Source of the DNA: Arenibacter certesii DSM 19833
GTDB taxonomy: Bacteria > Bacteroidota > Bacteroidia > Flavobacteriales > Flavobacteriaceae
DNA length: 64,000 nt
Direction of reading: 5' to 3'
NCBI RefSeq assembly: GCF_000429545.1
Contig: NZ_AUCB01000033.1
Coordinates: forward strand, 1 to 64,000
Every line of letters begins with the position of its first letter. The stretch's first letter is position 1. This document shows positions 2,989-42,016 of this stretch, piece by piece. Below the pieces are notes generated by a model. The model did no database searches. It was not told the DNA's origin and was given only the letters and a program-made list of their open reading frames with translations. A program made the translations under genes and the position numbers.

Positions 2989-3306
2989 TTATTTCGTCCG
3001 TTCTATTTTTATTGGGTTTTGTCGCGTATCAAAAACGTCATTTATTTCAATTCGGTTTTCTTTAATGTTTATCCAATAAATGACTTTATAATTTTTATAG
3101 ACTAAATATCTGAATTCTTGTTCTCTATCCTTTAGAAGCTCTTCGAGTTGTCCGATTTTCGGTTGTTTTATTAGCTTTAAAGTCTCATTGTAAATTCCGT
3201 TAACGAGATTTTTTGCAATTCGGGTTCCTGCTTTTTCACGATAGTACCTATAAATTTTTTCGAGTTCTTTTTGAGAAAAATCAGTCCAAAATAATTTTAA
3301 CTCCAT
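2989..3306 (-). CDS. parE: RelE/ParE-family toxin
   Basis: The 105-residue length is typical of ParE/RelE toxins. The visible features are an N-terminal beta strand then helix hairpin (WTDFSQKELEKIYRYYREK), the FRYLVYKNYKVIYWI strands and the C-terminal VFDTRQNP, all characteristic of the ParE branch. The start overlaps the end of the antitoxin gene by 10 bases, the usual antitoxin-first order. ParE toxins poison DNA gyrase, while RelE toxins cut mRNA; the C-terminal motif favours ParE. The likely role is stabilising the island. The target is not proven by sequence. Confidence 0.9.
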   Translation of the reverse strand: MELKLFWTDFSQKELEKIYRYYREKAGTRIAKNLVNGIYNETLKLIKQPKIGQLEELLKDREQEFRYLVYKNYKVIYWINIKENRIEINDVFDTRQNPIKIERTK

Positions 3307-3539
3307 TTATCAATTTTGGCCTTTAATTCACTCGCTTCAATTAGTCGCCCATTTTTTGAATCTTCCATAGATTGGTCGATCCGAGAATTAAATTCCTCAA
3401 TTGTCATTGGTTTAAGATCTTCGTGTCCAGATTGTTGGTTTTCTTTCTTCAAGATTTTTTCTAAACGTGAAATAACCTCTTCACTTTGAATTTTTAAAAA
3501 TTCTTGAATAAGTGCTAATTTTCTCGTTTGTAAATCCAT
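3297..3539 (-). CDS. Antitoxin of the ParE-type pair
   Basis: This protein has 80 residues, is mostly helical and is strongly charged. The C-terminal half (MTIEEFNSRIDQSMEDSKNG ... LKAKIDKW) resembles the toxin-binding tail of Bacteroidota antitoxins that accompany ParE. The order and the 10-base overlap with the toxin support the assignment. The N-terminal part (residues 1-35) is predicted to be a helical coil and could dimerise or bind DNA. No classical ribbon-helix-helix signature is obvious. Autoregulation of the operon is expected from the family. Confidence 0.8.
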   Translation of the reverse strand: MDLQTRKLALIQEFLKIQSEEVISRLEKILKKENQQSGHEDLKPMTIEEFNSRIDQSMEDSKNGRLIEASELKAKIDKWS

Positions 3540-3876
3540 TTTATTTAGCTTTTAATCAAAGATACAAAATTATCAATTTGAGTTATCATTTTTTGAATTG
3601 CAGAATTTTTCAGCCAACGGTTCGGCTCGTACGCTCAGTGCGGGATCAGCACGCGATTACCTTTACCAGATCAAGCAATTGGACAAAACGAACCAAACCG
3701 TAACCTTTCAAATAAAGAACTATAGGAAGGGAGGTGGAAAAGATCAGCTTAGCTATTTCGGAGAGTCCCAAAACCGACCGATAACACTGGCACAAAACGA
3801 ACCGAAATACTCACCTGGAAGTAATTCTTTATTTTATCTACTAATTCATTGTCTGCTTCTATTTAAAGGTAGAGCA
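3540..3876. repeat. Gene-free stretch with a 12-bp direct repeat
   Basis: ACAAAACGAACC occurs at 3683-3694 and 3792-3803, 109 bases apart. The complementary core GGTTCG is at 3619-3624. The section 3610-3660 is visibly richer in G and C than the island around it. Open frames on the plus strand here have no recognisable content and odd composition, so I do not call a gene. It may be a scar of an earlier insertion or a recombination site between cargo genes. Confidence 0.5.
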
Positions 3877-4332
3877 CTATTCGCTGGTTTCTTTTTTAAG
3901 ATTAACAATTTGGTTTAGAATATTTTCACCAATCCCAATTAATGTGAGTTTTCTTAGAGGATCTAATCCCTCAATGTAATATATATTATCGCTTTTATTA
4001 TTTCCACAAAGAGTTAAAGTGTTCAAATTCGTTTTAAATCTTGTTAATTGAACTTTTCCGTCTTCAACAAACGATTTGCTCAAAATATTTAATGTGTCAT
4101 TTTCATATCCTGTATCATACTCCTCTGAATTTTGGAAACGTGAAATTATAATTTTATCGGTTGAAAACTTTAGAATTGTTGGAAATTCTTGGTAAGAATC
4201 CTCATCCACAACGAGTAAAATTTCATCCGGTAAAACTGGAATATATTCCAAGTCGGCAAAATCCTTGACTTTATATCTATCACAACCTGTTATTATGATT
4301 GAGATTAGTAATATGTAAATAATTTCCCGCAT
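3877..4332 (-). CDS. Small putative lipoprotein, function unknown
   Basis: The protein has 151 residues. A hydrophobic start (MREIIYILLISIIITGC) ends in a lipobox with the acylated cysteine at position 17, so the mature protein should be anchored in the envelope. The remainder is a mixed alpha/beta domain without motifs that I recognise. It stands alone between the toxin-antitoxin pair and an HNH-like gene, with gaps on both sides. Nothing indicates its function. Confidence 0.65.
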   Translation of the reverse strand: MREIIYILLISIIITGCDRYKVKDFADLEYIPVLPDEILLVVDEDSYQEFPTILKFSTDKIIISRFQNSEEYDTGYENDTLNILSKSFVEDGKVQLTRFKTNLNTLTLCGNNKSDNIYYIEGLDPLRKLTLIGIGENILNQIVNLKKETSE

Positions 4333-4553
4333 AGATCTTATATTTCCCCAAACCTCAATTAATGTAATAGCAAATTCTTAAACCCTCCTTTTTAGACCTT
4401 TTTTACTGGCCTCTACCGAGTTGTTTAAAGTTTTGATCTTAAAACTTTGTACTACCTGGTATTTATCCATTTAATATTCGGATGAATACGTTTGTATTTG
4501 AATGGCCCTAACCGTTTTATACACGGAGGAGACACCTGTTCAATTAGTTTCAG

Positions 4554-5327
4554 TTATTTTTTCAATATAGATTTTAAAAAATCTAATTCTTTCCCGTTCG
4601 GCAAATGCAAAACTGTCATTTCTCCATTTTCTTTTAGCATTGTTCTGGTCAAGTATTCAGGTAATTTATGATGAGATGAGTTTACATAAAACATAAATTG
4701 AAAACTGTCCAATAAAAAAACGTATCCATTTAATCCGTTCTGAAATCTTACCCGTTTCGGTTGTCCGATTAGGTTTTTCCAGCTATTTTCCGTCCGTAGA
4801 AAAGAAGTTATCATAATCGGATATTCCGATTCTTTTGGTATTATGTTTTCATATATTAATTTCCTTAATGTTTCTTCGTGTTTTTCACCTAAATCTACAT
4901 CCATGAAAATTTTTCGGTCGGTAATTGAAGCTCTCCATAATATAGAAAGAAGAAATAATTTCATTTTACCATAATCAATATTTTTGCAAATTGAATACTC
5001 AGCTCCGTCATTGGGATTCTGATAGTTTCTGCAAATTGGTGCAATTTCTGGGTCAAGATCCCTTCCGTACATTGATTTTTGCGCGTATTTTTCATAATTA
5101 GCACCTATTATTCGATTATCACAATCTTCGCAAAGTATGTTCTTGTCAAATTCGCCTGTTTGGATTTTTTTAGAACGACTTATGTCCGTATCTAAATTAT
5201 AACTCATTGCATAAAAGATGTTGTTTTCATCCTTAATTTTGTTATACATAAATTCAGGGATGATGTGTGCCTTAATCAGTTTCTTTTCCTTTAAACATAA
5301 TCTACATTTACCCATATTTAATTCCAA
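4554..5327 (-). CDS. HNH-like zinc-binding protein
   Basis: The protein has 257 residues. CRLCLKEKKLIKAHIIPEFM (C8, C11, H21) and later CEDCDNRI form the two halves of a treble-clef finger with an HIIP motif, as in HNH-like proteins of accessory islands. The remaining 180 residues show no further motif. An alternative ATG twelve bases downstream (MGKC...) fits the family start equally well. Proteins with this head are often labelled HNH endonuclease, but the full catalytic set of histidine and asparagine is not clear here. A role in defence is possible but is inference. Confidence 0.65.
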   Translation of the reverse strand: MELNMGKCRLCLKEKKLIKAHIIPEFMYNKIKDENNIFYAMSYNLDTDISRSKKIQTGEFDKNILCEDCDNRIIGANYEKYAQKSMYGRDLDPEIAPICRNYQNPNDGAEYSICKNIDYGKMKLFLLSILWRASITDRKIFMDVDLGEKHEETLRKLIYENIIPKESEYPIMITSFLRTENSWKNLIGQPKRVRFQNGLNGYVFLLDSFQFMFYVNSSHHKLPEYLTRTMLKENGEMTVLHLPNGKELDFLKSILKK

Positions 5328-5874
5328 GGTTAGGATTTAGCAACAAACTACACTATCTCTATATTCTCAGTAACTAATATAAGAGTTATTTCATAAAAAC
5401 CACCAGTGTGTGTGTGTGTGTGTGTGTGTCTAAACAGCACTACAATAATTCTCAGTCCCTTTGTTGTTTATTTTCACATTGAATATTTAAGTATTCATTC
5501 ACTGAAGTAGTTCTATATTATTATATCAGCTCTTTCGTTATTATTCTAGGAAATCTCCTAACTGGTCACTATAATATCTTGGATTATATATAGTAATAGT
5601 CAAAATATTATCCGTCACATTATCATCTGATGAAAATCTTAACAAGTATACTCTTATAAAGATGAGTGAAAGATTTTTTCACAATAATGTATTTCCTTGA
5701 AAAAAGTACTAGATCTTAATGGTTATACCAGTATTAATTTTCACAGTGCAGGATTACGGTCATATGCGGAATTTTAGACCTTTTTTGTTTAGGAACTGTA
5801 CATAGTAATTCATATAAATCGCTTTTGAACGAACGGGTCCCTCCTCCCATTAGCTTGGCAATGTCAAGTTCAAT
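5328..5874. other. Gene-free AT-rich stretch
   Basis: No supported reading frame is seen. Apart from a GT microsatellite near the left end, the sequence is AT-rich and without clear hairpins or promoter-like motifs. Confidence 0.5.
5406..5429. repeat. (GT)12 dinucleotide microsatellite
   Basis: Twelve uninterrupted GT units lie about 80 bases upstream of the start of the HNH-like gene, which reads leftward. Such tracts change length by slippage and can alter promoter spacing. No phase-variation role is demonstrated. Confidence 0.95.
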
Positions 5875-6711
5875 TTAAAAATATAAAAGTTTCCTTTCAC
5901 AAAGAAATTGCAAAGAATTATCTATACAAGTTATTTGTTGAATCCAATGGCCAAATTTATTGTATTGATATTCATAATTCCTGGTCCAAGGTTCATTTGA
6001 GATATTCGATTCAGATTTTATTAAACCACCACCATTATATGTATATAAACAATAATTAGATGGATTAAATTTGTCTTCAGTCTCTTTCACTTCACCATCC
6101 TCGTTATATTCTAGATCGAAATTAAAACTTTTAATAACTTGATTGTTTTTATTTAATTCAGATATATACACTTCTTGATATTCTCTACTGGTATCACGAA
6201 TTTCTTTAATTATATTATCGTACCGTAATGTTTGATGAAGGTACCACTCATCTATTGTGACAAATTTTTGTTCAACACATCGAATACCTTTTTCATATAT
6301 GTGATGTATTTGCCTGGTTCTTTCATATGTTGTATTAATAAACTCTCGAATGTGTTCTACGAAATTATTTTTGTCTTTATAAATCACATTATTTTCCCTC
6401 GATAAAGAATTAGTTTCTTTGTTTATTTCAAGGATTTTAGTAAGTCTATTCTGCTTATCATATGAATATTTGTATAATGATCGTGGATGAAGGTTAACGA
6501 TATGTATTAATTTGCCTTTCTTATTATAAAATGCCTCAAAACTTTCAGATGTCGCTTGTAGCTTACCTTTAGGTTGCTTAATTATCGAAACAAAGGGATA
6601 GAAGGTTTGTTGACTAATATATTTTAACCCTTTAATATAGCGGTTTTGAAATTTTCTATAACCTTCGTATGAATACATGTTACTTCTTTTTTCGCTTTGT
6701 AATCTCTCCAT
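5875..6711 (-). CDS. YD-repeat-like protein of the island, function unknown
   Basis: I choose the ATG at 6711 (MERLQ...), giving 278 residues; the frame is open upstream to 6801, but that extension is hydrophobic and unlike the rest. The body carries several short beta-strand units of the YD/RHS type: YSYDKQNRLTKILE, YTYNGGGLIKSE and YEYQYNKFGHWIQQI. Similar units occur in RHS shells and in a family of Bacteroidota secreted proteins that decode as text-like YxYD repeats. No toxin domain and no signal peptide is visible. It may be a fragment of a longer gene. Confidence 0.55.
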   Translation of the reverse strand: MERLQSEKRSNMYSYEGYRKFQNRYIKGLKYISQQTFYPFVSIIKQPKGKLQATSESFEAFYNKKGKLIHIVNLHPRSLYKYSYDKQNRLTKILEINKETNSLSRENNVIYKDKNNFVEHIREFINTTYERTRQIHHIYEKGIRCVEQKFVTIDEWYLHQTLRYDNIIKEIRDTSREYQEVYISELNKNNQVIKSFNFDLEYNEDGEVKETEDKFNPSNYCLYTYNGGGLIKSESNISNEPWTRNYEYQYNKFGHWIQQITCIDNSLQFLCERKLLYF

Positions 6712-6930
6712 ATCACCAAAACGCTCTCTCCGAACAGTCCACCAAACTGATAAAAAAATTAGGTTGAAGTAACAAAAAAGTTGTACTTCAAAAATCAACA
6801 CAAACCCAAGGCAAGTCTGCGGAAATAAGACTCCGTAACAAACATTAAGAAGAAGGCTTTCCCAAAAGAAACCGATACCGTCAACAAGATATTTAGCCCT
6901 GTCCTATCGACTGGCTGGATACTAGTATTT

Positions 6931-7398
6931 TTATTTTTCAAATAGAGTAGGAATTGTAATTAAATTCATTTTTATTTTTTCTTTAATAAGGTCAAATTTC
7001 AATGAAACTAGTTCAGGGTCATTGAATTTCCCAAAATCTTTAAGTTCTTTTGTGAATATTGCTATTGCACGTGTTGTAGATTTGTCAATATCAAAATCAC
7101 CAGGTTCTAATAAAATCTCTGTTGTAGCTAATGCAACGCAATGAAAGAACAATTTATCCCAAAAGTCAGAATTACTTTTTTTTAATGTAAAGTATAAATC
7201 TTCCAATTCTAATTCTGCATTTAATGAGAAGTAATTTATAATCGACGAAGTAATTAAGTCAGATTTTTTCCTGATATTTTTAATTTTATTTCTATTTATA
7301 AAATTGTTATTCAGAAGGTTGTAATTATTTTGATATGAACTTATATTTCTGTGACAAAATTCCATAAGGTTTTCGCCTGATATGTTATTCCAAATCAT
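6931..7398 (-). CDS. Hypothetical helical protein of the island
   Basis: The protein has 155 residues and is largely alpha-helical, with no transmembrane segment and no motif I recognise. Regular codon use and length suggest a real gene. It sits between the YD-like gene and small orphans on the same strand. The start at 7398 is the first ATG; a later one (MEFCHR, 7365) is possible. No function is proposed. Confidence 0.5.
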   Translation of the reverse strand: MIWNNISGENLMEFCHRNISSYQNNYNLLNNNFINRNKIKNIRKKSDLITSSIINYFSLNAELELEDLYFTLKKSNSDFWDKLFFHCVALATTEILLEPGDFDIDKSTTRAIAIFTKELKDFGKFNDPELVSLKFDLIKEKIKMNLITIPTLFEK

Positions 7399-7578
7399 AT
7401 TTAATTTATCGATTTTATGGTTTGACCCTTATAAAACAAGAGTATTCTATTATATTTTAGAAGGAAGTTTCCACCTTCCACTCTCACGGAACCATTCATG
7501 ATAGTATCCAATCATATGGCTCTTCTACTGTAATATACAAAAATAACTCAACCTTTTTTCAAATTGGCAGGCTGTACA

Positions 7579-7827
7579 TCAAATTAGATACTCCCTTTTC
7601 TCCACTCTCATTAGAGGAGCTTCATCACTACTAAGGGATAATCCGTCCCTGTGCCAACCATCGCTATTCTGTTTCCAATTTATGAAATTATTCATTTTGC
7701 TTTGAATCTTGTCATAGGTTCCCGAGTTCCATAAGTATACCCAAATAATGGTCATGTCTTCTAAATTACGCTTACAGCTCCAGCCAAAAAAGATGTGACC
7801 ACTGGATGGTATTATAATGATTGTCAT
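7579..7827 (-). CDS. Small hypothetical protein
   Basis: This frame of 82 residues is rich in tryptophan (five) and has no recognisable domain. It could be a genuine small gene or the remnant of a larger one, because the flanking gaps are long and the composition is uneven. Only frame length and strand agreement with the neighbours support it. Confidence 0.3.
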   Translation of the reverse strand: MTIIIIPSSGHIFFGWSCKRNLEDMTIIWVYLWNSGTYDKIQSKMNNFINWKQNSDGWHRDGLSLSSDEAPLMRVEKREYLI

Positions 7828-7940
7828 ACTTCAAATACTTTTAATAGAAGGTAGTTTTGTCGACACTCAACCAGAGATTTATGCGCATTCATCTCCATTT
7901 GGGTATTCTTAACATATTAGAGTATTTTAGCCGTAGTGAT

Positions 7941-8288
7941 TTACCCGTTCTTATCATTGAAAAGATTCAATAACTCTCTTTGAGAATCAATAATATGATT
8001 TCTTAAGACGTGTAAAGCTCTTTCCTGAATTTTTCCGAAACTTTCAGAATCTAAATTACCATAAGCAATGTGCGGAACTTCAAGGTCTAGTGTAGTAGAT
8101 AAATTGGAATCATCTTCTCCATAATAAATTATAAAAACGTCAGAACCTCTCATATGTATTTGTAAGGAGTGTTCAATGTTTTCAATGTATTCCCGGGAAT
8201 AAACTTCAGGAATTTTAAAAGTAATTTTTTGTGTGTTAGGATTAAAATCTAATAAAGTTGGGATGTAAAGTTTTCCAAGTTCAAACAT
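7941..8288 (-). CDS. Hypothetical protein of the island
   Basis: This acidic protein has 115 residues: beta strands in the first half (ITFKIPEVYSREYIENIEHS, then VFIIYYGEDDSNLSTTLDLEV) and a C-terminal helix. No signal peptide or membrane segment is seen. The balanced composition suggests a real cytosolic protein. I do not recognise the family. Confidence 0.5.
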   Translation of the reverse strand: MFELGKLYIPTLLDFNPNTQKITFKIPEVYSREYIENIEHSLQIHMRGSDVFIIYYGEDDSNLSTTLDLEVPHIAYGNLDSESFGKIQERALHVLRNHIIDSQRELLNLFNDKNG

Positions 8289-8548
8289 TGCTTATGAATT
8301 TTATATTATCTAAATATTTATTAGGAGTCAAAAACTCTACTTTTATATGAAGATAATTTTTCTATTAATTCTTCGGATTAATTATTTCTTTTTGTTTATG
8401 ATATGTATCCATTTTTTTCATATGTGTTTTTATTTAGTTTTTTACTCCAAAGCTAAATACATATGATATAGCAACTTTTTAAATATACAAGACCATTCGA
8501 TTTAGCCATAAACTTCTCATTACGTTTTGATTTTGTTACCACCAGTAT

Positions 8549-9256
8549 TTATATTTCCCTTCTCTTAATTAGTTCTTCATATTGATAAACCAAGTGATAC
8601 AAGTAGGTTATAAACGCATCAAAAAAGTCAATAGCTTCTTTCGCATCTTGTTGATTGACAATTTGGTCATGTGAATGTGCTCCGTTGTTTCCAATTAATC
8701 TCAATTCATTAGCCCAATTATAAAGAGTATTCTCTAAAATTCCTTTAGTGTTTAGATTTTTCAATTTGTTTGCTAGATTACCCTTTATTTCTCCCTTATC
8801 AATACAGATTGCTTCTATACCTTTCCGACACATTATTACGCAAGCGTCATAAGCATGCGCACGATAACATTTTAAGGCTTCTTTATATGGATTATATACA
8901 ATTTCAGGACAACTTTTAATTGCTCTGTTTTCTGTATTTGGAAACAGCTGTAATTCGTTTGTAAGAAAATCATCTCCTTCAACGATTCGGTAATTTTTTT
9001 CTTTTAAGAATGGATTCTGGCATTTTAAGCACTTGCTCAATAAAACTTCCGTAACATATCCAGACAAATCTTCAGTAACAGTTTCGTCGGAAGCATATGA
9101 GTAAACTATTACGGTCTCAACTACTGAGTTACAAGTTGGGCAGAAATTCATTTCCTTAAACTCGTCGACTTTAGTTTCTTCCTTATTCATTTTTGAAATT
9201 GGTGGTAAAGTAAGGACATGAGTATAATTATACATGTCCATCAATTTTATCAACAA
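8549..9256 (-). CDS. DUF4145 domain protein with N-terminal zinc ribbon
   Basis: The protein has 235 residues. CPTC and CLKC pairs in the first third form a zinc ribbon. Residues about 120-225 (YKEALKCYRAHAYDACVIMC ... GNNGAHSH ... AKEAIDFFDAFITYLYHLVY) match DUF4145, a HEPN-like helical domain often found alone or fused to restriction or helicase proteins. The NGAHSH segment is the conserved part. It is the last gene of the island before the tRNA. A role in nucleic-acid-directed defence is plausible from the family but not shown. The start could lie further downstream (MNKEE at 9187). Confidence 0.75.
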   Translation of the reverse strand: MLIKLMDMYNYTHVLTLPPISKMNKEETKVDEFKEMNFCPTCNSVVETVIVYSYASDETVTEDLSGYVTEVLLSKCLKCQNPFLKEKNYRIVEGDDFLTNELQLFPNTENRAIKSCPEIVYNPYKEALKCYRAHAYDACVIMCRKGIEAICIDKGEIKGNLANKLKNLNTKGILENTLYNWANELRLIGNNGAHSHDQIVNQQDAKEAIDFFDAFITYLYHLVYQYEELIKRREI

Positions 9257-9547
9257 CTAATATAAGCCTTTATTTTAATAAAGTGGCTCTCCAATAGTTG
9301 CAAAACCCACCCAATACCAGAGCTCTGAAATACATTGGATTTAAGAAGAACCTTAATGCCACAACTTTCTGACTTGATCCTTGATCCACCACTTCTAAGA
9401 AAAAAATTTATCCCAAATCGAATTCACTGGCCCTATTTGTACTAAAAACAGCTTAATTGACAGAATAAATTGTTAAAACTCAAAAACTATGCACAAACTA
9501 TGCACAATTTGGAAGTTTTGCTTTTTTACGGAAAGTCCTAAAATGAC
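9257..9547. other. Island end region between DUF4145 gene and tRNA
   Basis: No reading frame is convincing. The part next to the tRNA contains a tandem 11-bp repeat and then the tRNA terminator. There is no integrase gene here, although this is where one is usually found in a tRNA-targeting element. Confidence 0.5.
9485..9506. repeat. Two tandem 11-bp repeats near the tRNA end (possible integrase arm sites)
   Basis: AACTATGCACA is repeated head to tail at 9485-9495 and 9496-9506, a period of about one helical turn. The repeats lie about 75 bases from the 3' end of tRNA-Arg, inside the island. Paired direct repeats at this distance suit arm-type binding sites of a tyrosine recombinase. That role is inferred from position. 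Confidence 0.6.
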
Positions 9548-9574
9548 GAAAACCCCAGTGTTTACTGAGGGTTT
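9546..9574 (-). terminator. Terminator hairpin of tRNA-Arg
   Basis: Read on the minus strand, AAACCCTCAGT and ACTGGGGTTT pair around a 4-base loop with one bulged base, followed by TTTTCGTCATTTT. It begins eight bases after the tRNA discriminator. The form is common after flavobacterial tRNA genes. Confidence 0.75.
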
Positions 9575-9581
9575 CCGGTGG

Positions 9582-9655
<74 letters not shown>

Positions 9656-29793: not shown

Positions 29794-30066
29794 GTTTCAT
29801 TACACGCACCATCCTTGAAAACTTTGTTATAAAACCTAAATACATAGTTAGTACGGTTCTTGACTCCTGTTTATACTATTACCAACTGTCTCAATCATTG
29901 TCAAATATGCACTATAAAAGCAAACTAGCTATGTTGTCGTCAAAAAAATTGCAAATAATATTCATTAACGGCAATTATTGATTCAATTAAGATCGTAGGA
30001 GAGCGGAAGAGCATGTATTTTTATAAAAAATTTTAAGGAAGTCTATTAGCAAAAACATTTTTGACC

Positions 30067-32190
30067 ATGGAGAAAAGTGAGAATGATAAAATAAAGAGAT
30101 TAAAGAGACATACGGTGGATGGAGAAAATCAGCCATTAACCACTCGCCAAGGTCTAAAGGTAAACGATACCAATAATTCCTTAAAATCTGGATCTAGAGG
30201 TGCAAGCTTACTTGAGGATTTCATTCTAAGAGAGAAAATAACCAGTTTTGATCATGAGCGAATTCCAGAGCGTATTGTTCATGCAAGAGGTAGTGGAGCA
30301 CACGGGTATTTTGAACTAACTGAAAGTATCGAGCAATTTTCAAAAGCCGGAATTCTCACCGATACCAATCGTAAAACTCCTGTTTTCGCAAGGTTTTCTA
30401 CTGTTGCGGGTTCCAAAGGATCTACTGATTTGGCTAGAGACGTTAGGGGTTTTGCCGTTAAATTCTATACCCAAGAAGGGACATGGGATTTAGTGGGCAA
30501 TAATATGCCCATATTCTTTATACAGGATGCCATGAAATTCCCAGATTTGGTGCATTCCGTAAAACCAGAACCTAATAAAGAGATTCCCCAGGCCGCGTCT
30601 GCCCATGATACTTTTTATGATTTTGTTAGTTTGGCCACAGAAACACTGCACAACCAAATATGGGTTATGAGTGATAGAGCTATTCCCAGGAGCTTAAGAA
30701 TGATGGAAGGCTTTGGGATTCATACCTATCGCTTGATCAATAAATCAGGTGAATCCCATTTTGTAAGATTTCATTGGAAACCGGTGTTGGGTGTGCATTC
30801 TGTAACATGGGATGAGGCAGTAAAAATAAGTGGTGCCGATTCGGATTTTCACAGAAGAGATTTATGGGACGCAATTGATTCGGGTGAATTTCCTCAATGG
30901 GAATTTGGAGTTCAAATTATCCCTGAAGAAGACGAACATAAATTTGAATTTGACCTACTAGACCCCACAAAACTTATTCCCGAGGAAATGGTTCCCGTTA
31001 AGATTATTGGTAAAATGACCCTAAATCGGAATCCAGAGAATTTTTTCGCAGAAACGGAGCAGGTAGCCTTCCTTCCGGGAAATATTGTCCCTGGAATAGA
31101 TTTTTCAAACGATCCATTGTTACAAGGTAGGTTATTTTCATATCGCGATACCCAACTTTCGCGCTTAGGAAGCCCTAATTTCCATCAAATTCCCATTAAT
31201 CAGCCAGTGGTAGATGCTCATCATAACCAGCGAGACGGCCAAATGCAGATGAATATCCCTAAAGGGCAAACCGCCTATTTTCCTAATACATTGGGTGGCG
31301 GATGTCCGTTTTTATCTAAAATATCAGAAGGCGGATTCTCCTCCTATGAAGAACGTATTGATGCCAAAAAGATAAGGACCCGAAGTAAAAGTTTTAGCGA
31401 TCACTTTTCTCAGCCTGCCCTCTTCTACCGCAGTTTAGCCCCATGGGAACAAAAACACGTAGCAGATGCCTATTCTTTTGAATTGGGAAAGTGTACGCAT
31501 ACCCATATAGTACAGCGTATGCTATGGTTAATACAACAAATAGATGAGGACTTGGCGGAAACTGTCTCGGCAAATTTAGGAATTGCGATACCTGAAAGCA
31601 TAGAACAACCTATCAATCAGGCAATTGGAGCTGATAGTAATGTAGAAGATTTTCAACCCGGCCCCAAGATAAATTACTTGGACAAGTCCGCTGCATTAAG
31701 TCAGGCCAATACAAAGTTTAAGAGTATAGCAACCAGACAAATAGCAGTATTGGTATCGGATGGTTTTAGCGAATCCGACTTTAGTGATATGAAATCGGCA
31801 ATACAAAAAGAGAAAGCGCAAATTAAATTGATAGCTCCTACAGGAGGAACAGTTAAAAGCGATTCCAATAAGGAATATAAAATTGACGCCTCCATAACTA
31901 CCACCGAGAGTGTGCTCTATGATGCCGTATATATCCCCGGAGGAAATAAATCGGTCAATGAACTTATAAAACACGCCAAATTCATAAAGTTTATAAACGA
32001 AGCACTAAAACACTGTAAAGCGATTGCAGTTGATAATGAAGGCGAACAACTATTGGATAGAACATTTGGCAAGGACTTTAAAGCAGATAAGGCGGTACTT
32101 ATCAATGGTACAACCAAGGAATTTATTGAAGCTATTGCAAAACATCGAAATTGGGATAGAATGGATAAGGTGGATAATATCCCTGTCTAA
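30067..32190 (+). CDS. katE: Large-subunit monofunctional catalase (HPII type)
   Basis: The protein has 707 residues from ATG 30067. Catalase core: RIPERIVHARGSGAHGYFE with the distal histidine, DLVGNNMPIFFIQDA with the asparagine, and RLFSYRDTQLSRLG with the heme-ligand tyrosine. From about residue 560 a class-I glutamine-amidotransferase/DJ-1-like domain follows (IAVLVSDGFSESDF, AVYIPGGNKSV), which marks the clade-2 large catalases. It decomposes hydrogen peroxide, typically in stationary phase. It is central to the stress-gene region. The TTG two codons upstream is a less likely start. Confidence 0.97.
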   Translation: MEKSENDKIKRLKRHTVDGENQPLTTRQGLKVNDTNNSLKSGSRGASLLEDFILREKITSFDHERIPERIVHARGSGAHGYFELTESIEQFSKAGILTDTNRKTPVFARFSTVAGSKGSTDLARDVRGFAVKFYTQEGTWDLVGNNMPIFFIQDAMKFPDLVHSVKPEPNKEIPQAASAHDTFYDFVSLATETLHNQIWVMSDRAIPRSLRMMEGFGIHTYRLINKSGESHFVRFHWKPVLGVHSVTWDEAVKISGADSDFHRRDLWDAIDSGEFPQWEFGVQIIPEEDEHKFEFDLLDPTKLIPEEMVPVKIIGKMTLNRNPENFFAETEQVAFLPGNIVPGIDFSNDPLLQGRLFSYRDTQLSRLGSPNFHQIPINQPVVDAHHNQRDGQMQMNIPKGQTAYFPNTLGGGCPFLSKISEGGFSSYEERIDAKKIRTRSKSFSDHFSQPALFYRSLAPWEQKHVADAYSFELGKCTHTHIVQRMLWLIQQIDEDLAETVSANLGIAIPESIEQPINQAIGADSNVEDFQPGPKINYLDKSAALSQANTKFKSIATRQIAVLVSDGFSESDFSDMKSAIQKEKAQIKLIAPTGGTVKSDSNKEYKIDASITTTESVLYDAVYIPGGNKSVNELIKHAKFIKFINEALKHCKAIAVDNEGEQLLDRTFGKDFKADKAVLINGTTKEFIEAIAKHRNWDRMDKVDNIPV

Positions 32191-32312
32191 AAATAGTAAC
32201 CTTTGTTATTCAACACTTAAATGTAAATCAAATAGAAATTAAAATATATACAATAAGAGGGAATTAGTTCCTTTAAAATTAACCTTAAATATAAACCAAA
32301 ATTCGAAACATT

Positions 32313-32468
32313 ATGAGAGAAATAGTATGGATTATCGTAGCAATTTTAATTATTGGCTGGTTAGTAGGTTTTACCGTTTTCCCCGATATTGGAGGTATTA
32401 TACATCTTCTATTAGTAGTAGCTGTAATACTAATCGTTTACAAATTAGTAACGGGAAGAAGTGTTTAA
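32313..32468 (+). CDS. lmo0937-like (DUF5670) small membrane peptide
   Basis: The protein has 51 residues, MREIVWIIVAILIIGWLVGF then a short loop and a second helix ending in KLVTGRSV. Two hydrophobic helices separated by a glycine-rich turn (PDIGGIIHLL) and the basic end match the lmo0937/DUF5670 family of stress-induced membrane peptides. It lies between katE and a strong terminator, so the two may be co-transcribed. Confidence 0.85.
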   Translation: MREIVWIIVAILIIGWLVGFTVFPDIGGIIHLLLVVAVILIVYKLVTGRSV

Positions 32469-32485
32469 AACACTTCTTTAATCAT

Positions 32486-32526
32486 AAAAAAGGTTCCAAT
32501 AAATTTTGTATTGGAACCTTTTTTTT
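32486..32526 (+). terminator. Rho-independent terminator after the DUF5670 gene
   Basis: AAAAAAGGTTCCAATA pairs with TATTGGAACCTTTTTT around a short loop and runs into a T tract. The symmetric A/T flanks make it likely to work in both directions. Confidence 0.95.
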
Positions 32527-32770
32527 ATGGATAGATCAACCTAGACCTACCCACATGATTTAATTACCTTAAAATATTCACTGACAGATAGGCTATAGTC
32601 TTAAATGTCTCCAACAATTTAGAATCTTCCTTTAGGATTAAAATATTATTTTTTTAAGGGCATCCACTCTTGTTAACTATTTAACTTTAATAAGGAAATA
32701 TACAAGGTGATTTCCAACCCATTAAAAACGCCTAAGGAAAGCGTATAATATGTTTCTTAAAAGAAAAGTC

Positions 32771-33784
32771 ATGGCAAACAAAAGAAATCAGGTTAAAGAA
32801 ATTGATGATTCCGCAATGGTTATTTCTAGGAAGAAACGTGGTAGGGGCTATTGCTTTTATGATGAACACGGGAATAGAATTTCTGACAAAAAATCACTAA
32901 AAAGATTGCGTAACCTGGTAATCCCTCCTATGTGGACAGACGTTCAAATATGTCGTTTTAATGATGGTCATATCCAAGCAATTGGAAGGGATGCCAAAAA
33001 CAGGAAACAATATATTTATCACTCCGTTTTTGAAAAGCAACAGCAAGAAGAAAAGTTCAAACGAATGATCGCGTTTTCTAGTAACTTGACAAAAATCCGT
33101 AAAAGAGCATATAAAGATCTATACGCTAAGGGTTGGAGTAAAAACAAACTCATTGCTTTAATTATATTGCTCTTAGACGAGTACGGGATCAGAATTGGCA
33201 ATAAAGAGTATAAAAAACAAAACGATTCTTATGGATTGACCACCTTAAGAAGAAAACACTTATCCATTGAAGATGATGGACTGCTTCTTTCTTTTAAGGG
33301 TAAGAGCAATCAGGAACAGGAAGTTTATATTAATCATCCAGAATTGGTTCCATTTATAACTAAGGCCGCCGATCTTCCGGGCTATGAAATTTTTAGGTAC
33401 CGAGATAGTAATGGCAACTACCATGATGTGGACAGTGATGATGTTAATTCTTACATAGGAATGTATATGTCTTCCGAATATAGCAGCAAAGATTTTAGAA
33501 CTTGGGCAGCAAATCGCTTAGCGGTTGAATTTTATCCTATAGCCCTGAATGACCAAAAAAAAGGAGGTAGAAAGAAGTTTAGCAATATCGTTATTAAAAT
33601 GGTGGCCTCGGAATTAGGCAATACACCAAGTGTTTGCAGAAATTATTACGTACATCCCACTATTTTCAAAAAAATTGACGAAAAAACCATACCCAATCCC
33701 AATCCGTTCCGGAAAACCAAAAGTGTATTTTCACTTTCGGCAAGTGAGAAATTAGCTCGGGAGATTATCGCTACAGACACTTAA
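32771..33784 (+). CDS. Type IB DNA topoisomerase (poxvirus-like)
   Basis: The protein has 337 residues from ATG 32771. The N-terminal domain has GYCFYDEHGNRISDKKSLKR and IPPMWTDVQICRFNDGHIQA; the catalytic domain has IGNKEYKKQNDSYGLTTLRR, the DFRTWAANRLA motif, and the active-site tyrosine in VCRNYYVHPTI. This is the bacterial topoisomerase IB plan, which relaxes supercoils of both signs through a 3'-phosphotyrosine. The usual histidine near FRTW is not obvious at the expected place. In Bacteroidota the gene is often found among DNA-protection genes, as here. Confidence 0.92.
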   Translation: MANKRNQVKEIDDSAMVISRKKRGRGYCFYDEHGNRISDKKSLKRLRNLVIPPMWTDVQICRFNDGHIQAIGRDAKNRKQYIYHSVFEKQQQEEKFKRMIAFSSNLTKIRKRAYKDLYAKGWSKNKLIALIILLLDEYGIRIGNKEYKKQNDSYGLTTLRRKHLSIEDDGLLLSFKGKSNQEQEVYINHPELVPFITKAADLPGYEIFRYRDSNGNYHDVDSDDVNSYIGMYMSSEYSSKDFRTWAANRLAVEFYPIALNDQKKGGRKKFSNIVIKMVASELGNTPSVCRNYYVHPTIFKKIDEKTIPNPNPFRKTKSVFSLSASEKLAREIIATDT

Positions 33785-36389: not shown

Positions 36390-36836
36390 TTACCCTTCGG
36401 GATAAAGGGTTCTTAAATAATAAATTGAAAGTCGTGCTGACTCTACTTTTAGGAGATGGTTTCTTAATGTATGACGGATTTTAGGTAATAACTTATTGGA
36501 AAGAAGCAGGTTACAAATTTCAATTATTTTGAAGTCAGTATCTAAAAAATCCCTATCCCTACAAATAGTACAGTTTAAAACATTTTGACCATATAAGTTT
36601 ATATGCCTTTGATAAAGCTCTTCTAACCTCTGACCATGATTACACTCACCATCTCCCACTTCAATGGTTAATTCTATATCCGTTATAAAATCTAGCCTTT
36701 CAAAAGCCCTTTCCTCCAAAAACTTTTTTAACATAGGGGATTGGGCTCTCATTGCCGCATTAACATATTGAAGTTGCGAATAAGCATATAGTTTGTTCAA
36801 TTGTTGTAGCCAGGTATATAAAATCCAGTTCTGCAT
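36390..36836 (-). CDS. Helical protein, ferritin-like (DUF2383/DUF892 style), tentative
   Basis: The protein has 148 residues, essentially all alpha-helical, with four long helices (about 5-30, 33-60, 66-85, 110-145) and several glutamate and histidine residues. The size and helix pattern recall small ferritin-like stress proteins such as DUF892 or DUF2383, but the metal-binding ExxH pattern is not clear. One CxxC (CTIC, near residue 90) is unusual for those families. Placed as the last member of the stress-gene stretch. Confidence 0.5.
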   Translation of the reverse strand: MQNWILYTWLQQLNKLYAYSQLQYVNAAMRAQSPMLKKFLEERAFERLDFITDIELTIEVGDGECNHGQRLEELYQRHINLYGQNVLNCTICRDRDFLDTDFKIIEICNLLLSNKLLPKIRHTLRNHLLKVESARLSIYYLRTLYPEG

Positions 36837-37204
36837 CTCAATAATTTTATATAAAACTACTATTCCTCAGAAAGACAAATCTTCTTTAATGATTTAAAAT
36901 GTAACTCAATAGATCATAAAATATAGAGTTCAACAGATTTGGGCACATTGAAAATAAAAATAGACCTCTATTCCTATCACACCAAAACCTCTTTATATTT
37001 AGATCAGCGATCCTAATTGCACTAAGTATATAACTGTAATGGTTTAGCAGCGTAACGCATAAGCCATAATAAGGGTATGAGGTTGTTTCGGTTAACAAAA
37101 TATCGGAACAGGTTAACTACTTATTTAATTTGACGGTACTTTTTCACTCCAGGTAAGTATATACCTCAACTAGTACCATAGGTCTAATTAATAAAATACT
37201 AGTA
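36837..37204. other. Gene-free stretch upstream of the sbnA-like operon
   Basis: A 70-codon minus-strand frame has no coding character. The operon promoter should be here, but no exact -33/-7 pair at proper spacing was found by eye. Confidence 0.4.
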
Positions 37205-38209
37205 ATGATAGCATTAGAAAAAGAGATTAAGATTGCGAATAATATTGTTGATACCATTGGAAATACGCCCTTAGTAAAGCTGAACAGACTCTTCAACAAT
37301 TCTACCTATAATGTTTATGGAAAGTTAGAATTGTCCAACCCCAGCGGAAGTGTTAAGGATCGTACTTCCATGTTTATCTTACTGGAAGCGCTAAATAATG
37401 GAAAAATTCAGCCAGGACATACCATTATTGAATCTAGTTCAGGCAATATGGCCTTAGGGCTTGCTCAGGCGTGTCTTTACTTCAATTTAAAATTGATTGT
37501 AGTTGTAGACCCCCATATCAATCGGCATACCGAAAAGTTATTACTCACTTATGGGGCTAAAATAGAGTACGTACAGACTCCCAATGAAAAGGGTGGGTAT
37601 TTAGCTGCCAGACTAGAAAAAGTCCAACAACTACTAAAACAAATCCCTAATAGCTATTGGTCCAATCAATATGGTAATCCAAATAATCCACTTGCCCACC
37701 AAAACACCATTACAGAAATCTTAAATTCTCTTAACGGCAAGGTAGATTACCTATTTATGGCAGTAAGTACTTGTGGTACAATTATGGGATGTGCAGATTA
37801 TATAAGTGAAAATAATATCGAAACGAAGATTATTGCCGTAGATGCAAAGGGGAGTGTGCTATTTGGCGGTCTTCCCGAAAAAAGAATAATTCCAGGTCAT
37901 GGCGCCAGTGTGCGTTCACAATTTTTGGACACCTCCAAACTTTGGGATCATATGGAAGTGAGCGACCTAGATTGTGTGCGGGGTTGTTGGTCTCTTTTAA
38001 AAGAAGAGGGAATTCTCTGTGGCGGTTCTACAGGGGGAGTAATTTCTGCAATTAAAAAATACGAGGCCCATATTCCAGATAATAGCAATTGTGTTTTACT
38101 CTTAAGCGATCGGGGTGATCGCTATCTAGATACCATTTATAATAAAGATTGGTTAGCTACGAAAATTGAAGGGGTTAAAAACGTACTATACCCCATAGGA
38201 GGATGGTAG
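37205..38209 (+). CDS. sbnA: SbnA-like PLP enzyme (cysteine synthase fold; diaminopropionate pathway)
   Basis: The protein has 334 residues. Fold-type II PLP enzyme: the Schiff-base lysine K51 in SNPSGSVKDRT, the ESSSGNMALGLA loop, the phosphate-binding GTIMG-type turn (STCGTIMG) and GGSTGGVISA. The sequence pattern, such as RHTEKLLLTYGAKIEYVQTP and the GHGASVRSQFLD block, follows SbnA rather than CysK. SbnA joins O-phosphoserine and glutamate to N-(2-amino-2-carboxyethyl)-glutamate, the precursor of 2,3-diaminopropionate. Overlaps the next gene by 7 bases. The partner dehydrogenase SbnB is not present here. Confidence 0.8.
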   Translation: MIALEKEIKIANNIVDTIGNTPLVKLNRLFNNSTYNVYGKLELSNPSGSVKDRTSMFILLEALNNGKIQPGHTIIESSSGNMALGLAQACLYFNLKLIVVVDPHINRHTEKLLLTYGAKIEYVQTPNEKGGYLAARLEKVQQLLKQIPNSYWSNQYGNPNNPLAHQNTITEILNSLNGKVDYLFMAVSTCGTIMGCADYISENNIETKIIAVDAKGSVLFGGLPEKRIIPGHGASVRSQFLDTSKLWDHMEVSDLDCVRGCWSLLKEEGILCGGSTGGVISAIKKYEAHIPDNSNCVLLLSDRGDRYLDTIYNKDWLATKIEGVKNVLYPIGGW

Positions 38210-40041
38210 AACGAGACAAGATAAAATTAGGTGATGATGCCCCTCTTACAATTGGAATCATAGGATTTGGGCCTAAAGGCCTATATGGCTTAGAAAATCT
38301 ATTGGCGCAGATTAGGAATTCAAATACTAAAGCCCCAATTTCTATCCATTTATTCAATAGAACAGCTTTTTTTGGGTCTGGGGATATCTATCGGCAAGAT
38401 CAACCCGAATATCTCATTATGAATTACGCCAATCATAATATCAAATTTAATTCCACCAATGGACCCCAATTTCTTCCTTCGGAAATAGATGATTATGTGC
38501 AATGGTTATCAAAAAGAGAAGAGAAGCCAGAGAATAATATCCGCAATTTATTTTCCTCAAGAGCCTCGGTAGGCAAATACCTTTCCTACTGTTTTAAAAA
38601 ACTTTACCACTATCTTCCCAACAATGTGAAGCTTACCACGCACGTTAAGACTATTACGAAAATACATAAAAGTGATAGTGGTTATACCTTGGAAAGCGAG
38701 GATGAGGAAGACCTACTCTCCAGTTTAAAATTTCATAAGGTATTAATTACCACTGGCCATTATTCGTACAGAACCGATAAACCTCCCCATCAGGAAAAAT
38801 TGACCGGGTATATCCATTTTGTCTATCCGGTGGAGCAACTTGGACAAATACTACCAAAATCCAAAGTGGCCATCAAAGGAATGGGACTAACCTTTATAGA
38901 TACGGCACTTTCTCTTACAGAAGGTCGTGGAGGGATCTTTAGTGAATTGCCCAATGGTTACCTAAAGTATAAAGCCTCCGGAAAGGAACCTCTAAAAGTA
39001 TATCCATTTTCCAGAACAGGATTGCCGATGATTCCTAGAAATGGCTCTCAGGATGTACAGATTATCCCCCCAGAGGTTATCAAGTCAGTTTTGAACCCAG
39101 CAACTTTAGCTAGACCCTGTAGTTTTATGAAAACGGTTCTTCCTAAGATAAAAAGGTTATGTTATTACGCTTTCTATACTGCCATGTTTGAAGAAAAGAA
39201 TCAAGAATTAATTTTTAGCGAAGATTTTTCCGAAATTAAGCAACAAGTCGCACATTTTCATTTAGCATATCCTAACCTACCCCCATTTTCTTGGGAGTAT
39301 CTAGAAGATCCATTTCACAGTAAACAATATCCAACCCATGATTATATTTCGGACTATATAAAAAACCTAATACAGGAAGCGAAGCTCGGTGTAGGAAAAA
39401 GCCCGTTGATGTCCGCCGTATCAGTTTGGCGCCAAATAAGCCCAATTTTTAATAGCATTTATAGTTTTGGAGGACTAGATGCACCATCACAGCATAAATT
39501 TGATTCGTATTACTTTGGACTATTTAATAGGCTTGCTTATGGTCCTCCCCTACAGAATGTCCAAAAGATATTAGCCCTTCAAGAGGCAGGGATTATTGAC
39601 TTTACCTATGCGAAAAATACCAGCTGTACCTATGATCCCCATTCACAAGTACACGTTCTTAATCACGCCAATAAAAAAGAAACAGTAACCTATATGATCA
39701 ACGCTAGGATACCTAGAGCCACAGAAGGTGAAGATCACAGAGGTTTGTTTTATAATTTAATGGAGAATGGCATTGTCCGTCCTTATACCAATAAGACCAA
39801 TGGTTATTATAAACCTGGATATATAGATTTAAACAAGGAGGGAAATCCTTATAGTAAGGATGGGAAAATTAACAAGGATATAGCCTTTTATGGAACTCCT
39901 ACTGAGGGGATAACTTTTGATAACGATACCCTTTCACGGGAAAGAAACAATTTTGCTACCCAATGGGCAAAGAATATTATAACGGAAATTAGGCTGAAAC
40001 TTGACAGCCGTAAACATATAAAAACAGATGAAATATTTTAA
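38203..40041 (+). CDS. FAD/NAD(P)-binding protein of the sbnA-like operon
   Basis: The protein has 612 residues. The dinucleotide-binding start IGIIGFGPKGLYGLENLLAQ is followed by FNRTAFFGSGDIYRQDQPEY, LIMNYANH, the shape of the pfam NAD_binding_9 family. A second nucleotide site (KVAIKGMGLTFIDTALSLTE) is at about 225. Some members act as oxidoreductases in natural-product or amino-acid pathways. Lying between an SbnA-like enzyme and a decarboxylase, it could take the place of SbnB and oxidise the coupling product. That role is inference. Overlaps both neighbours. Confidence 0.8.
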   Translation: MVERDKIKLGDDAPLTIGIIGFGPKGLYGLENLLAQIRNSNTKAPISIHLFNRTAFFGSGDIYRQDQPEYLIMNYANHNIKFNSTNGPQFLPSEIDDYVQWLSKREEKPENNIRNLFSSRASVGKYLSYCFKKLYHYLPNNVKLTTHVKTITKIHKSDSGYTLESEDEEDLLSSLKFHKVLITTGHYSYRTDKPPHQEKLTGYIHFVYPVEQLGQILPKSKVAIKGMGLTFIDTALSLTEGRGGIFSELPNGYLKYKASGKEPLKVYPFSRTGLPMIPRNGSQDVQIIPPEVIKSVLNPATLARPCSFMKTVLPKIKRLCYYAFYTAMFEEKNQELIFSEDFSEIKQQVAHFHLAYPNLPPFSWEYLEDPFHSKQYPTHDYISDYIKNLIQEAKLGVGKSPLMSAVSVWRQISPIFNSIYSFGGLDAPSQHKFDSYYFGLFNRLAYGPPLQNVQKILALQEAGIIDFTYAKNTSCTYDPHSQVHVLNHANKKETVTYMINARIPRATEGEDHRGLFYNLMENGIVRPYTNKTNGYYKPGYIDLNKEGNPYSKDGKINKDIAFYGTPTEGITFDNDTLSRERNNFATQWAKNIITEIRLKLDSRKHIKTDEIF

Positions 40042-41482
40042 AGGCAACGCGACAGATGGACTTACACCAATAACGTCGGCATGGATGCATAACCTATTTA
40101 AAGATGGGGAGCTATTAAACCAGCTTATTGCACAATATGGTTCACCGGTAAACCTGCATAACCTTTCTTCTTTTGAGAAGAACATTGAAAAATATAAAAA
40201 CGTATTCGAATCTCGAGGTCTTCGACATCAGATTTATTACGCTAGAAAAGCAAATAAATCTAGAGGACTCGTAAAACATGCTCTAGAATCGGGAATAGGA
40301 GTAGACACAGCAAGCTATAAAGAATTATTGCAATCCTTGGAACTGGGTGGAGATAGCCAAAGCCTAGTATTGACTTCCGCTATTAAGACAACCAATCAAA
40401 TTGAACTTGCCTTACAAAACAAAATTACCATAATACTGGATAATTCCGATGAATGTAACCTAATCAATTCCATAGCAAAAAAATTAGGCATTAAGGCGGA
40501 TGTAGGAATTAGGGTTAGCGGGTTTTATGTAAACAAACAAAAGCTGTACAGCAGATTTGGATTTGATATAGATGAAGTTATCCCTTTCACAATCAAACAC
40601 GTAGGCAAAGATAAAGAGTTAGCTAATTTAAACTTAACAGGATTGCATTTTCATTTAGATGGTTATTCTACCGAACAACGCGCACTAGCCTTATCATCAT
40701 GCATTTCTCTTGCTAACCAATTAAAGCATAATGGGTACCCCATTACTTTTATTGATATGGGTGGAGGAATATTAATGAATTATTTGGCCCATGAGCAAGA
40801 ATGGATAGATTTTGATTATAAGTTAAGAGAGTCCGTCCAGAATGAAGATGCCAGTATTACGTTTAATGGTACTGGATTGGGATATGAAATGGTGGATGGG
40901 AAGTTAAACGGAAAACTGAATACATACCCCTTTTTCAATAGCATTTATGGGGTAGATTTTTTAAATGAAATCTTGGATTATAGGGATTCGAACAATGATA
41001 TGAACAATACTGACCGATTAAAATCTGAAAATATTGAAATTAGGATCGAACCAGGGAGATCATTACTGAACCAAACCGGTATTACAGCCGCCAAAGTAGC
41101 TCATAGAAAAAAAGATTCCAAAGGGCAATGGTTAGTGGGACTTGAAATGAATATGTCTCAAATGATGAGTTCTAGTGCAGATTTTCTGTTAGACCCTTAT
41201 ATCGTTTACCATAATTTCCCTGAAGATTCAGATGAAGTACAGGTATATTTTACTGGAGCCTATTGTCTAGAAAGGGATGTTCTTCTTAAAAGAAAGATTA
41301 CCCTGCCTAAATTACCAGAACGGGGTGATATAGTCATGTTTATTAACACCGCTGGTTATATGATGCATTTCTTTGAAACCGAAGCCCACCTATTTGAACT
41401 ATCCAAAAATATAATGTTTAAAGAGAATTCTCCTAATCTAAACGATTTAGATTTTATTGAGGATAGTCTAATAACAAAGTAA
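40028..41482 (+). CDS. Group-IV PLP decarboxylase (Orn/DAP decarboxylase fold, Y4yA/SbnH-like)
   Basis: The protein has 484 residues. Alanine-racemase-type barrel: K74 in YYARKANKSRGL is the PLP lysine, followed by SGIGVDTASYKEL, then HFHLDG and IDMGGGIL, GRSLLNQTG. The C-terminal beta domain has the catalytic cysteine in GAYCLERD and MHFFETEAHLF. The length and motifs resemble the Y4yA-type PLP-dependent enzymes and SbnH, which decarboxylates a siderophore intermediate. It overlaps the upstream gene by 14 bases, and a terminator follows. The substrate is unknown. Confidence 0.82.
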   Translation: MKYFKGNATDGLTPITSAWMHNLFKDGELLNQLIAQYGSPVNLHNLSSFEKNIEKYKNVFESRGLRHQIYYARKANKSRGLVKHALESGIGVDTASYKELLQSLELGGDSQSLVLTSAIKTTNQIELALQNKITIILDNSDECNLINSIAKKLGIKADVGIRVSGFYVNKQKLYSRFGFDIDEVIPFTIKHVGKDKELANLNLTGLHFHLDGYSTEQRALALSSCISLANQLKHNGYPITFIDMGGGILMNYLAHEQEWIDFDYKLRESVQNEDASITFNGTGLGYEMVDGKLNGKLNTYPFFNSIYGVDFLNEILDYRDSNNDMNNTDRLKSENIEIRIEPGRSLLNQTGITAAKVAHRKKDSKGQWLVGLEMNMSQMMSSSADFLLDPYIVYHNFPEDSDEVQVYFTGAYCLERDVLLKRKITLPKLPERGDIVMFINTAGYMMHFFETEAHLFELSKNIMFKENSPNLNDLDFIEDSLITK

Positions 41483-41529: not shown

Positions 41530-41574
41530 AACTATCCCGTAAAAGCAACTTTTACGGGATAGTTATTTCTTTTA
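41530..41574 (+). terminator. Terminator of the sbnA-like operon
   Basis: A perfect 16-bp stem, AACTATCCCGTAAAAG with CTTTTACGGGATAGTT, loop CAA, then ATTTCTTTT. Confidence 0.93.
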
Positions 41575-41617: not shown

Positions 41618-42016
41618 TTAATTGTTATAATTCACCATCCAATTAATTCCAAATTTGTCCGTACATCTTCCAAAATACCCCCACTCCCGTTCTCTAAAAT
41701 TATGATGAACCCTTCCACTCTTAGAAAGTTCACCAAACATCTCCGAAGCACTTTCCTTACTATCCATATCTACACTCATGTGAATCTGATTACCATGATT
41801 AATAGGGGTGTCAGGAGAGGCATCATAAGCCATAACATGAATGTTTTTCCCCTTTAATTCCGCATGTTGCAATTTATCTCGATAAGAAGAAGGAACGTCA
41901 ATTTTTTTATCCTTATAGGATTGTTTGTTTATAATATCCGCCTCAAATAAATCGGCGTAAAAATTTAATGCTTCTTGGCAATTACCGTTAAAGGCTAAAT
42001 AGGCTTGAATTTTCAT
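41618..42016 (-). CDS. PhnB/YjdN-type VOC protein
   Basis: The protein has 132 residues. MKIQAYLAFNGNCQEALNFY, then AELKGKNIHVMAYDASPD, QIHMSVDMDSKESASEMFGE and GYFGRCTDKFGINWMVNYN follow the PhnB/3-demethylubiquinone-methyltransferase-like VOC subfamily, which ends in a conserved FGxxWMV segment. The enzyme activity of these proteins is generally unknown. The gene is convergent with the sbnA-like operon, separated by its terminator. Confidence 0.92.
   Translation of the reverse strand: MKIQAYLAFNGNCQEALNFYADLFEADIINKQSYKDKKIDVPSSYRDKLQHAELKGKNIHVMAYDASPDTPINHGNQIHMSVDMDSKESASEMFGELSKSGRVHHNFREREWGYFGRCTDKFGINWMVNYNN

Follow-up and report, generated by a model that had tools for sequence, protein, structure and literature searches.

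Which product is made by three overlapping genes that join an SbnA-like enzyme, a flavin adenine dinucleotide (FAD)- and NADP-binding enzyme, and a pyridoxal phosphate (PLP)-dependent decarboxylase? The question is raised by a locus of Arenibacter certesii DSM 19833, analyzed here in a window of 64,000 nucleotides (contig NZ_AUCB01000033.1, positions 1 to 64,000). A sequence-only reading of the window had described such an operon, and its open reading frames (ORFs), families, and gene order were all confirmed, with overlaps of 7 nt between the first two ORFs and 14 nt between the last two:

37205–38209, plus strand: SbnA-type gene, 334 aa, ATG start.
38203–40041, plus strand: gene for an FAD/NADP enzyme that resembles class-B N-oxygenases (FzmM/CreE superfamily), predicted to catalyze the second step, 612 aa, ATG start.
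40028–41482, plus strand: gene for a Y4yA-like amino acid decarboxylase of PLP fold type III, predicted to catalyze the last step, 484 aa, ATG start.

The trio is a real, self-contained pathway module, kept in many marine and soil bacteria. The best explanation that we can offer, held tentatively and at slightly under an even chance, is that its three enzymes form one complete short pathway leading to a C2 diamine.

The first enzyme scored 405.6 bits against the SbnA model TIGR03945, above the equivalog cut-off of 349.95, and 202.8 bits against the CysK model, below the cut-off of 350.95; the cut-offs for CysM and cystathionine beta-synthase were also missed. Its closest solved chain is Staphylococcus aureus SbnA (5d84, E 8.8e-74). 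Residues R132, Y152, and S185, reported to be responsible for selective O-phosphoserine binding in SbnA (PMC12414870), are all present in the window protein and were found in 79, 79, and 78, respectively, of 80 trio SbnA rows, leaving out rows shorter than 280 aa and duplicates on contigs already named. Neither rhizobial y4xP nor any of three CysK-like proteins encoded in the A. certesii genome has the full set. In a quick tree rooted on these three CysK-like proteins, which like the flavoenzyme tree carries SH-aLRT support only and does not resolve the branching within its SbnA part, the trio SbnA grouped with the SbnA of nonribosomal peptide synthetase (NRPS), polyketide synthase, and NRPS-independent siderophore (NIS) clusters. 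Family score, residues, and tree thus agree in supporting the earlier assignment of the predicted protein to the SbnA type, and identity as a cysteine synthase was rejected on the missed CysK cut-off, the branching with SbnA, and the retained residues. Given the score and signature residues, this enzyme would very probably build N-(2-amino-2-carboxyethyl)-glutamate (ACEGA) from O-phosphoserine and glutamate.

The third enzyme matched Orn_Arg_deC_N (PF02784) with 102.8 bits and the LysA model with 148.1 bits, below the cut-off of 297.9. Significant similarity to CysK at one end of the trio and to LysA at the other could be taken to indicate an ordinary sulfur or lysine operon that begins with a cysteine synthase, but both cut-offs were missed, a separate protein above the cysKM cut-off is encoded in the same genome, and the trio SbnA branches apart from the three resident CysK-like proteins, making such an operon highly improbable. 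K74, H209, GGG245–247, EPGR341–344, and C413 of the decarboxylase are invariant in all 14 aligned trio members, so that the enzyme is probably active; we take these to be the catalytic lysine, the GGG and EPGR phosphate-site motifs, and the C-terminal cysteine. Several of its plasmid relatives are annotated as Y4yA family.

The association of the three genes was assessed in named genomes by a scan with the flavoenzyme profile alone, which retrieved 139 relatives; counts over 80 loci refer to the best 80 of these 139, and the presence of SbnA or decarboxylase was no part of their selection. All three genes occur in order at 75 of the 80 loci, counting L078, L081, L084, and L086, where a contig end truncates one of the genes. 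Three separate genes in order were found at 67, the two gaps being no longer than 30 nt at 61 and 63 of these, with ORF starts taken as the longest and overlaps therefore upper bounds. SbnA and flavoenzyme form a single ORF at seven loci from Zunongwangia, Mesonia, and Salegentibacter (L073, L074, L079, L080, L083, L091, and L101); at L084 the SbnA end lies at the contig edge, and at L117 only the flavoenzyme is present. A flavoenzyme query of 60 genomes gave nine matches, A. certesii among them. Of the 17 other genomes of the genus, five carry the full trio; the three remaining matches (G027, G028, and G047) are distant, and neither SbnA nor decarboxylase was seen within about 1.5 kb of them. 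The decarboxylase query matched 10 of 395 genomes of the phylum, again counting A. certesii; eight of the nine others were examined (all but the truncated G392), of which seven carry the trio. In one of these seven, L043, it includes a 952-aa SbnA–flavoenzyme fusion; the eighth, G103, has a decarboxylase match without the flavoenzyme. A contig scan with a single window protein found no relative; the profile scan did retrieve relatives. Recovery in 5 of 17 genomes of the genus and at 75 of 80 loci fetched by the flavoenzyme alone argues that the trio is not a chance arrangement.

Most trio loci belong to Bacteroidota. Outside this phylum we found the trio in Balneolaceae, two Chloroflexota, metagenome-assembled genomes (MAGs) of Opitutales and Thalassovita, Sulfitobacter plasmids, and a Tsukamurella plasmid on which the flavoenzyme is only partly annotated; an Acidobacteria MAG lacks the decarboxylase, the MAGs being taken as binned. 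Flavoenzyme genes also stand beside shrunken SbnA remnants at L128 (9615–11861) and L141 (8287–10703), together with a decarboxylase remnant at the former. L128 comes from Algoriphagus antarcticus, which also carries a complete trio (L094).

The second enzyme, a member of the FAD-NAD(P)-binding family PF13454 (101.7 bits), has a sole match among solved sequences at E values up to 1, the aspartate N-hydroxylase 8cp2 (E 6.9e-31). Its AlphaFold2 model, built from 38 rows (predicted local distance difference test [pLDDT] 90.0, predicted template modeling score [pTM] 0.89), aligned over nearly its whole length with both 8cp5 (558 residues, Z 35.2, root mean square deviation 2.5) and 8cp2 (Z 35 and 558–559 residues for the two), at 22–23% identity. 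The remaining structures listed cover about 290–400 residues with Z at most 19.2, the next entry having Z 19.2 over 318 residues. FzmM is thus the only full-length fold match among the solved structures listed, and the model has the three-domain class-B N-oxygenase fold.

FzmM makes nitrosuccinate and holds aspartate with Arg13, Arg276, Arg416, Arg577, and Asn413 (PMC10404684). At positions 13, 276, 413, and 416, which the comparison covers (the reference letters end before R577), the window enzyme has K, I, P, and N; one row of this comparison (G007) shows R at 416. The same departure from FzmM/CreE runs through 87 trio-type rows: K replaces R13 in 87/87, a count partly selected by a search pattern that contained GPKG; R does not rank with the six most frequent letters at either 276 or 416; and R412, N413, and R416 have mostly given way to S (59 rows), P (46 rows, with N in 4), and N (56 rows). 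The likeness to FzmM/CreE lies in the fold, the cofactor motifs, and some further residues: G9, G11, and N62 (FzmM numbering) are kept in 87/87 rows, G226 and G228 of the second dinucleotide motif are invariant in 38/38 rows, and R266 and R409, two of the sulfate-binding arginines of FzmM (PMC10404684), are found in 81/87 and 63/87. Since the residues of the aspartate chamber are mostly replaced, a plain aspartate N-hydroxylase was rejected as an unlikely identity of the enzyme; the flavoenzyme may still work in the manner of an FzmM-type N-oxygenase.

The place of the flavoenzyme in the gene order is that usual for SbnB, as the sequence-only reading had proposed, and we infer that it stands in for this NAD-dependent enzyme. 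No SbnB (TIGR03944) above cut-off was detected in any of 13 trio genomes (A. certesii and 12 others). Elsewhere, pairs of Y4yA-type and cysteine-synthase-fold genes are accompanied by other redox genes, of the octopine-dehydrogenase type on pNGR234a and in Bradyrhizobium and of the ornithine-cyclodeaminase type in Agrobacterium vitis and Mycobacterium avium. These redox genes and the SbnA–flavoenzyme fusions, which point to consecutive steps, suggest that the flavoenzyme acts on the SbnA product, a role that we consider fairly likely. With NADPH and O2 it would oxidize ACEGA, most likely at the bridging secondary amine, releasing 2-oxoglutarate and leaving diaminopropionate (Dap) or its N-oxygenated form; this exact chemistry is put forward as somewhat less likely than not. 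The fold-III decarboxylase, judging from its family and position, would then remove a carboxylate to give ethylenediamine or N-hydroxy-ethylenediamine, and action on a Dap-type carboxylate is likely. A new amine is a plausible predicted product, as had been suggested.

The relationship to FzmM also raises the possibility that N-oxygenation is itself the purpose of the pathway. Successive oxidation of an amine of Dap or ACEGA would yield a hydroxylamine or nitro compound and, after decarboxylation, an N-oxygenated C2 amine or else a compound that releases nitrite or NO. The sole full-length fold match listed is a nitrosuccinate maker, and other members of the flavoenzyme family adjoin a nitronate monooxygenase or a gene annotated pcaB; FzmL, a nitrosuccinate lyase, has this type of annotation in a paper that also lists nitrous-acid pathways using N-hydroxylases (PMC7347517). 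However, with most of the aspartate chamber lost, iterative oxidation is not to be assumed, and no pcaB-like gene, as a nitrosuccinate lyase partner, was seen among the recurring neighbor families listed, which were read by eye (the genomes were not searched for it). We regard this possibility as rather unlikely.

As had been noted from the sequence, neither an NIS synthetase nor a transporter adjoins the trio; its flanking genes are divergent (36390–36836, minus strand) and convergent (41618–42016, minus strand), so that no gene of either kind falls within the unit. IucA/IucC synthetases, whose presence elsewhere in the genome was also in question, were found in none of the 13 trio genomes by a search that was positive in 2 of 14 control genomes, and a siderophore was dropped as the main explanation on this count. 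SbnA and SbnB do occur together in plasmid-borne NIS and NRPS clusters, as well as in clusters of Bacteroidetes (PMC9248904), and the trio could, as in staphyloferrin B, supply a precursor of some siderophore or peptide assembled elsewhere in the genome. With IucA/IucC missing, and with no assembly-line gene seen by eye among the recurring neighbor families listed (no search for NRPS genes was made in the rest of the genomes), we give this only a slim chance. ACEGA resembles ethylenediaminedisuccinate (EDDS) and the aspergillomarasmine-type chelators. A decarboxylase acting on ACEGA itself could yield N-(2-aminoethyl)-glutamate or a relative, to be tailored by the flavin enzyme into an aminopolycarboxylate metallophore. 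A part in metallophore synthesis, proposed in the sequence-only reading, is possible and draws no support from the neighboring genes: NIS synthetases are missing from 13/13 trio genomes, and no transporter family is specific to the trio neighborhood, the SusC/TonB-type and ABC-ATPase families (named by eye) seen near it in 4–5 genera also occurring in 2–3 of 40 control regions. The chelator proposal accordingly appears improbable.

Several observations weigh against a pathway from SbnA through the flavoenzyme to a C2 diamine. The substrate, product, and activity of every trio member are predictions. FzmM uses a primary amine, and action on a secondary amine is an assumption. S185 is no strict mark of SbnA, since G occupies this position in the proteins annotated as SbnA from Sandaracinus, Cutibacterium, and Deefgea. 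Two loci (L125 and L136) hold SbnA and flavoenzyme without the decarboxylase. In the L073 fusion each half is modeled with good confidence (mean pLDDT 88.1), but the pTM of 0.67 for the whole gives no firm placement of one site relative to the other. Eleven of the 13 trio genomes contain weak matches to the SbnB model (best 102.8 bits against a cut-off of 326.9), so that these genomes may encode an SbnB-like enzyme that the model does not recognize. A Mycobacterium intracellulare plasmid carries a Y4yA gene close to a gene of the cysteine-synthase fold, and its annotation places no redox gene between the two. Finally, a Deefgea plasmid (L023, 3457–7894) carries sbnA, sbnB, a PF13454-type flavoenzyme, and thrH in a row, showing that such flavoenzymes can occur alongside SbnB instead of replacing it. 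The Deefgea flavoenzyme falls outside the trio clade in the quick tree, and the set is possibly a pathway to N-oxygenated Dap.

Among described systems, the SbnA/SbnB Dap module of staphyloferrin B and NRPS clusters shares with the trio its first enzyme, SbnA by score, residues, and tree; the trio differs in having no SbnB over cut-off, in the flavin/NADP enzyme and decarboxylase that follow directly, and in the lack of an adjoining NIS or NRPS gene. The resemblance to rhizobial y4x/y4y genes that had been drawn in the sequence-only reading holds for the two ends and fails in the middle. The pNGR234a operon y4yA–y4xP–y4xO–y4xN–y4xM likewise unites Y4yA-type, cysteine-synthase-fold, and redox genes, but y4xO is annotated as an octopine/nopaline dehydrogenase type and is accompanied by the IucA/IucC gene y4xN and a major facilitator superfamily (MFS) gene, whereas the A. 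certesii unit has neither a y4xO-type nor a y4xN-type gene. Y4xP, moreover, has S and G in place of Y152 and S185 of SbnA, two of the three residues. The role of the y4x genes is described as enigmatic (PMC3973906). The plasmids of Sulfitobacter and Tsukamurella carry the sbnA–FAD–Y4yA trio in the same order as the window; the Sulfitobacter trio is distant from it (identities of 29% for the FAD enzyme, 41% for SbnA, and 36% for the decarboxylase), and the Tsukamurella FAD enzyme has R for K in the GPK motif. No paper on an SbnA–flavoenzyme–Y4yA trio was found among the matches listed for the literature searched, which covered few subscription journals.

Other clusters with related genes were noted in passing. 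At L047 (3880–9520), an SbnA-like gene (450 aa) and a Y4yA-like gene occur with cysteine-desulfurase-like and phytoene-desaturase-like genes (the last two named by eye) and without a trio-type flavoenzyme, perhaps as another pathway with the same start. On an A. vitis plasmid (L025, 2283–11411), genes for a phosphoenolpyruvate mutase, a cytidylyltransferase, and a CDP-alcohol phosphatidyltransferase adjoin a set of ParB-like, ornithine cyclodeaminase, Y4yA-like, and cysteine synthase genes. A Staphylococcus epidermidis plasmid (L001, 1679–12089) carries a cluster of LeuA, TauD, cupin, MFS, LeuC, LeuD, flavoenzyme, and aminotransferase genes, apparently a biosynthetic set.

No fourth gene is common to most of the 80 trio loci. 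The short-chain dehydrogenase/reductase family, the commonest neighbor, was rejected as a fourth operon gene (18/80 loci versus 5/40 controls, p 0.14), and a VOC/glyoxalase-like gene near the trio at 10/80 loci, all of them Maribacter or Arenibacter, is read as shared synteny. Within about 10 kb of the trio, catalase HPII occurs at 14 of the 80 loci, DUF421/YetF at 17, DUF2383 at 14, and DUF892 at 5; none of the four was seen in the 40 control regions, drawn from 9 trio genomes (DUF892 alone gives p 0.13). Adding BON, MscS, and TopoIB brings the count to 40/80 loci, in 26 of 40 genera, versus 1/40 controls. These seed families were chosen after viewing the same loci, and BON and MscS alone are not enriched (each 5/80 versus 1/40). 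When half of the genera served for choosing the families and the remaining half for testing them (20 splits), the effect shrank to medians of 66% of test loci and 32.5% of control regions (median p 0.0012), with p 0.10 in one of the eight splits printed. In the 13 trio genomes, moreover, the 10 kb around the trio hold only one catalase, that of A. certesii, and no gene of the DUF421 type; a further catalase lies about 22 kb away. A stress role is therefore a lead and not a result. The product would probably have an intracellular use, which to judge by gene neighborhood may be protection against stress. That the trio represents a widespread, undescribed pathway to a new N-oxygenated C2 amine, a protective or signaling molecule kept in stress-gene islands, is a speculative and on balance unlikely extension.

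The boundaries of the A. certesii unit are marked by two further features:

36837–37204, intergenic between divergent genes, upstream of the trio: presumed promoter region, 368 bases.
41530–41564, between convergent genes, picked up on both strands in a consensus scan: terminator-like hairpin with a 16-pair stem.

The hairpin is the probable end of the trio transcript. Neither TTG-N17-23-TAnnTTTG, which we take to be the flavobacterial promoter element, nor TAnnTTTG was found in the 368 bases scanned upstream of the trio. The stretch 30061–33784, about 3–7 kb upstream, encodes a long catalase of the HPII type together with a bacterial DNA topoisomerase IB. Near the start of the window, genes for VapE-like, HTH_17, ParE-like toxin, and DUF4145 proteins beside a tRNA-Arg (9579–9655) give the region 901–9655 the look of an element integrated at a tRNA gene.

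SbnA is known as the first half of the route to Dap in siderophores and peptide antibiotics, and it is usually interpreted as a pair with SbnB; sbnA/B is an abundant feature of Bacteroidetes secondary metabolism (PMC9248904). An annotated sbnA is, with due caution, not always a marker of a siderophore or Dap peptide. Here SbnA is paired, and several times fused, with a flavin enzyme whose closest solved relative converts aspartate to a nitro compound. With a decarboxylase following and no assembly line nearby, the trio is a ready target for three-enzyme reconstitution and possibly the source of a new metabolite.

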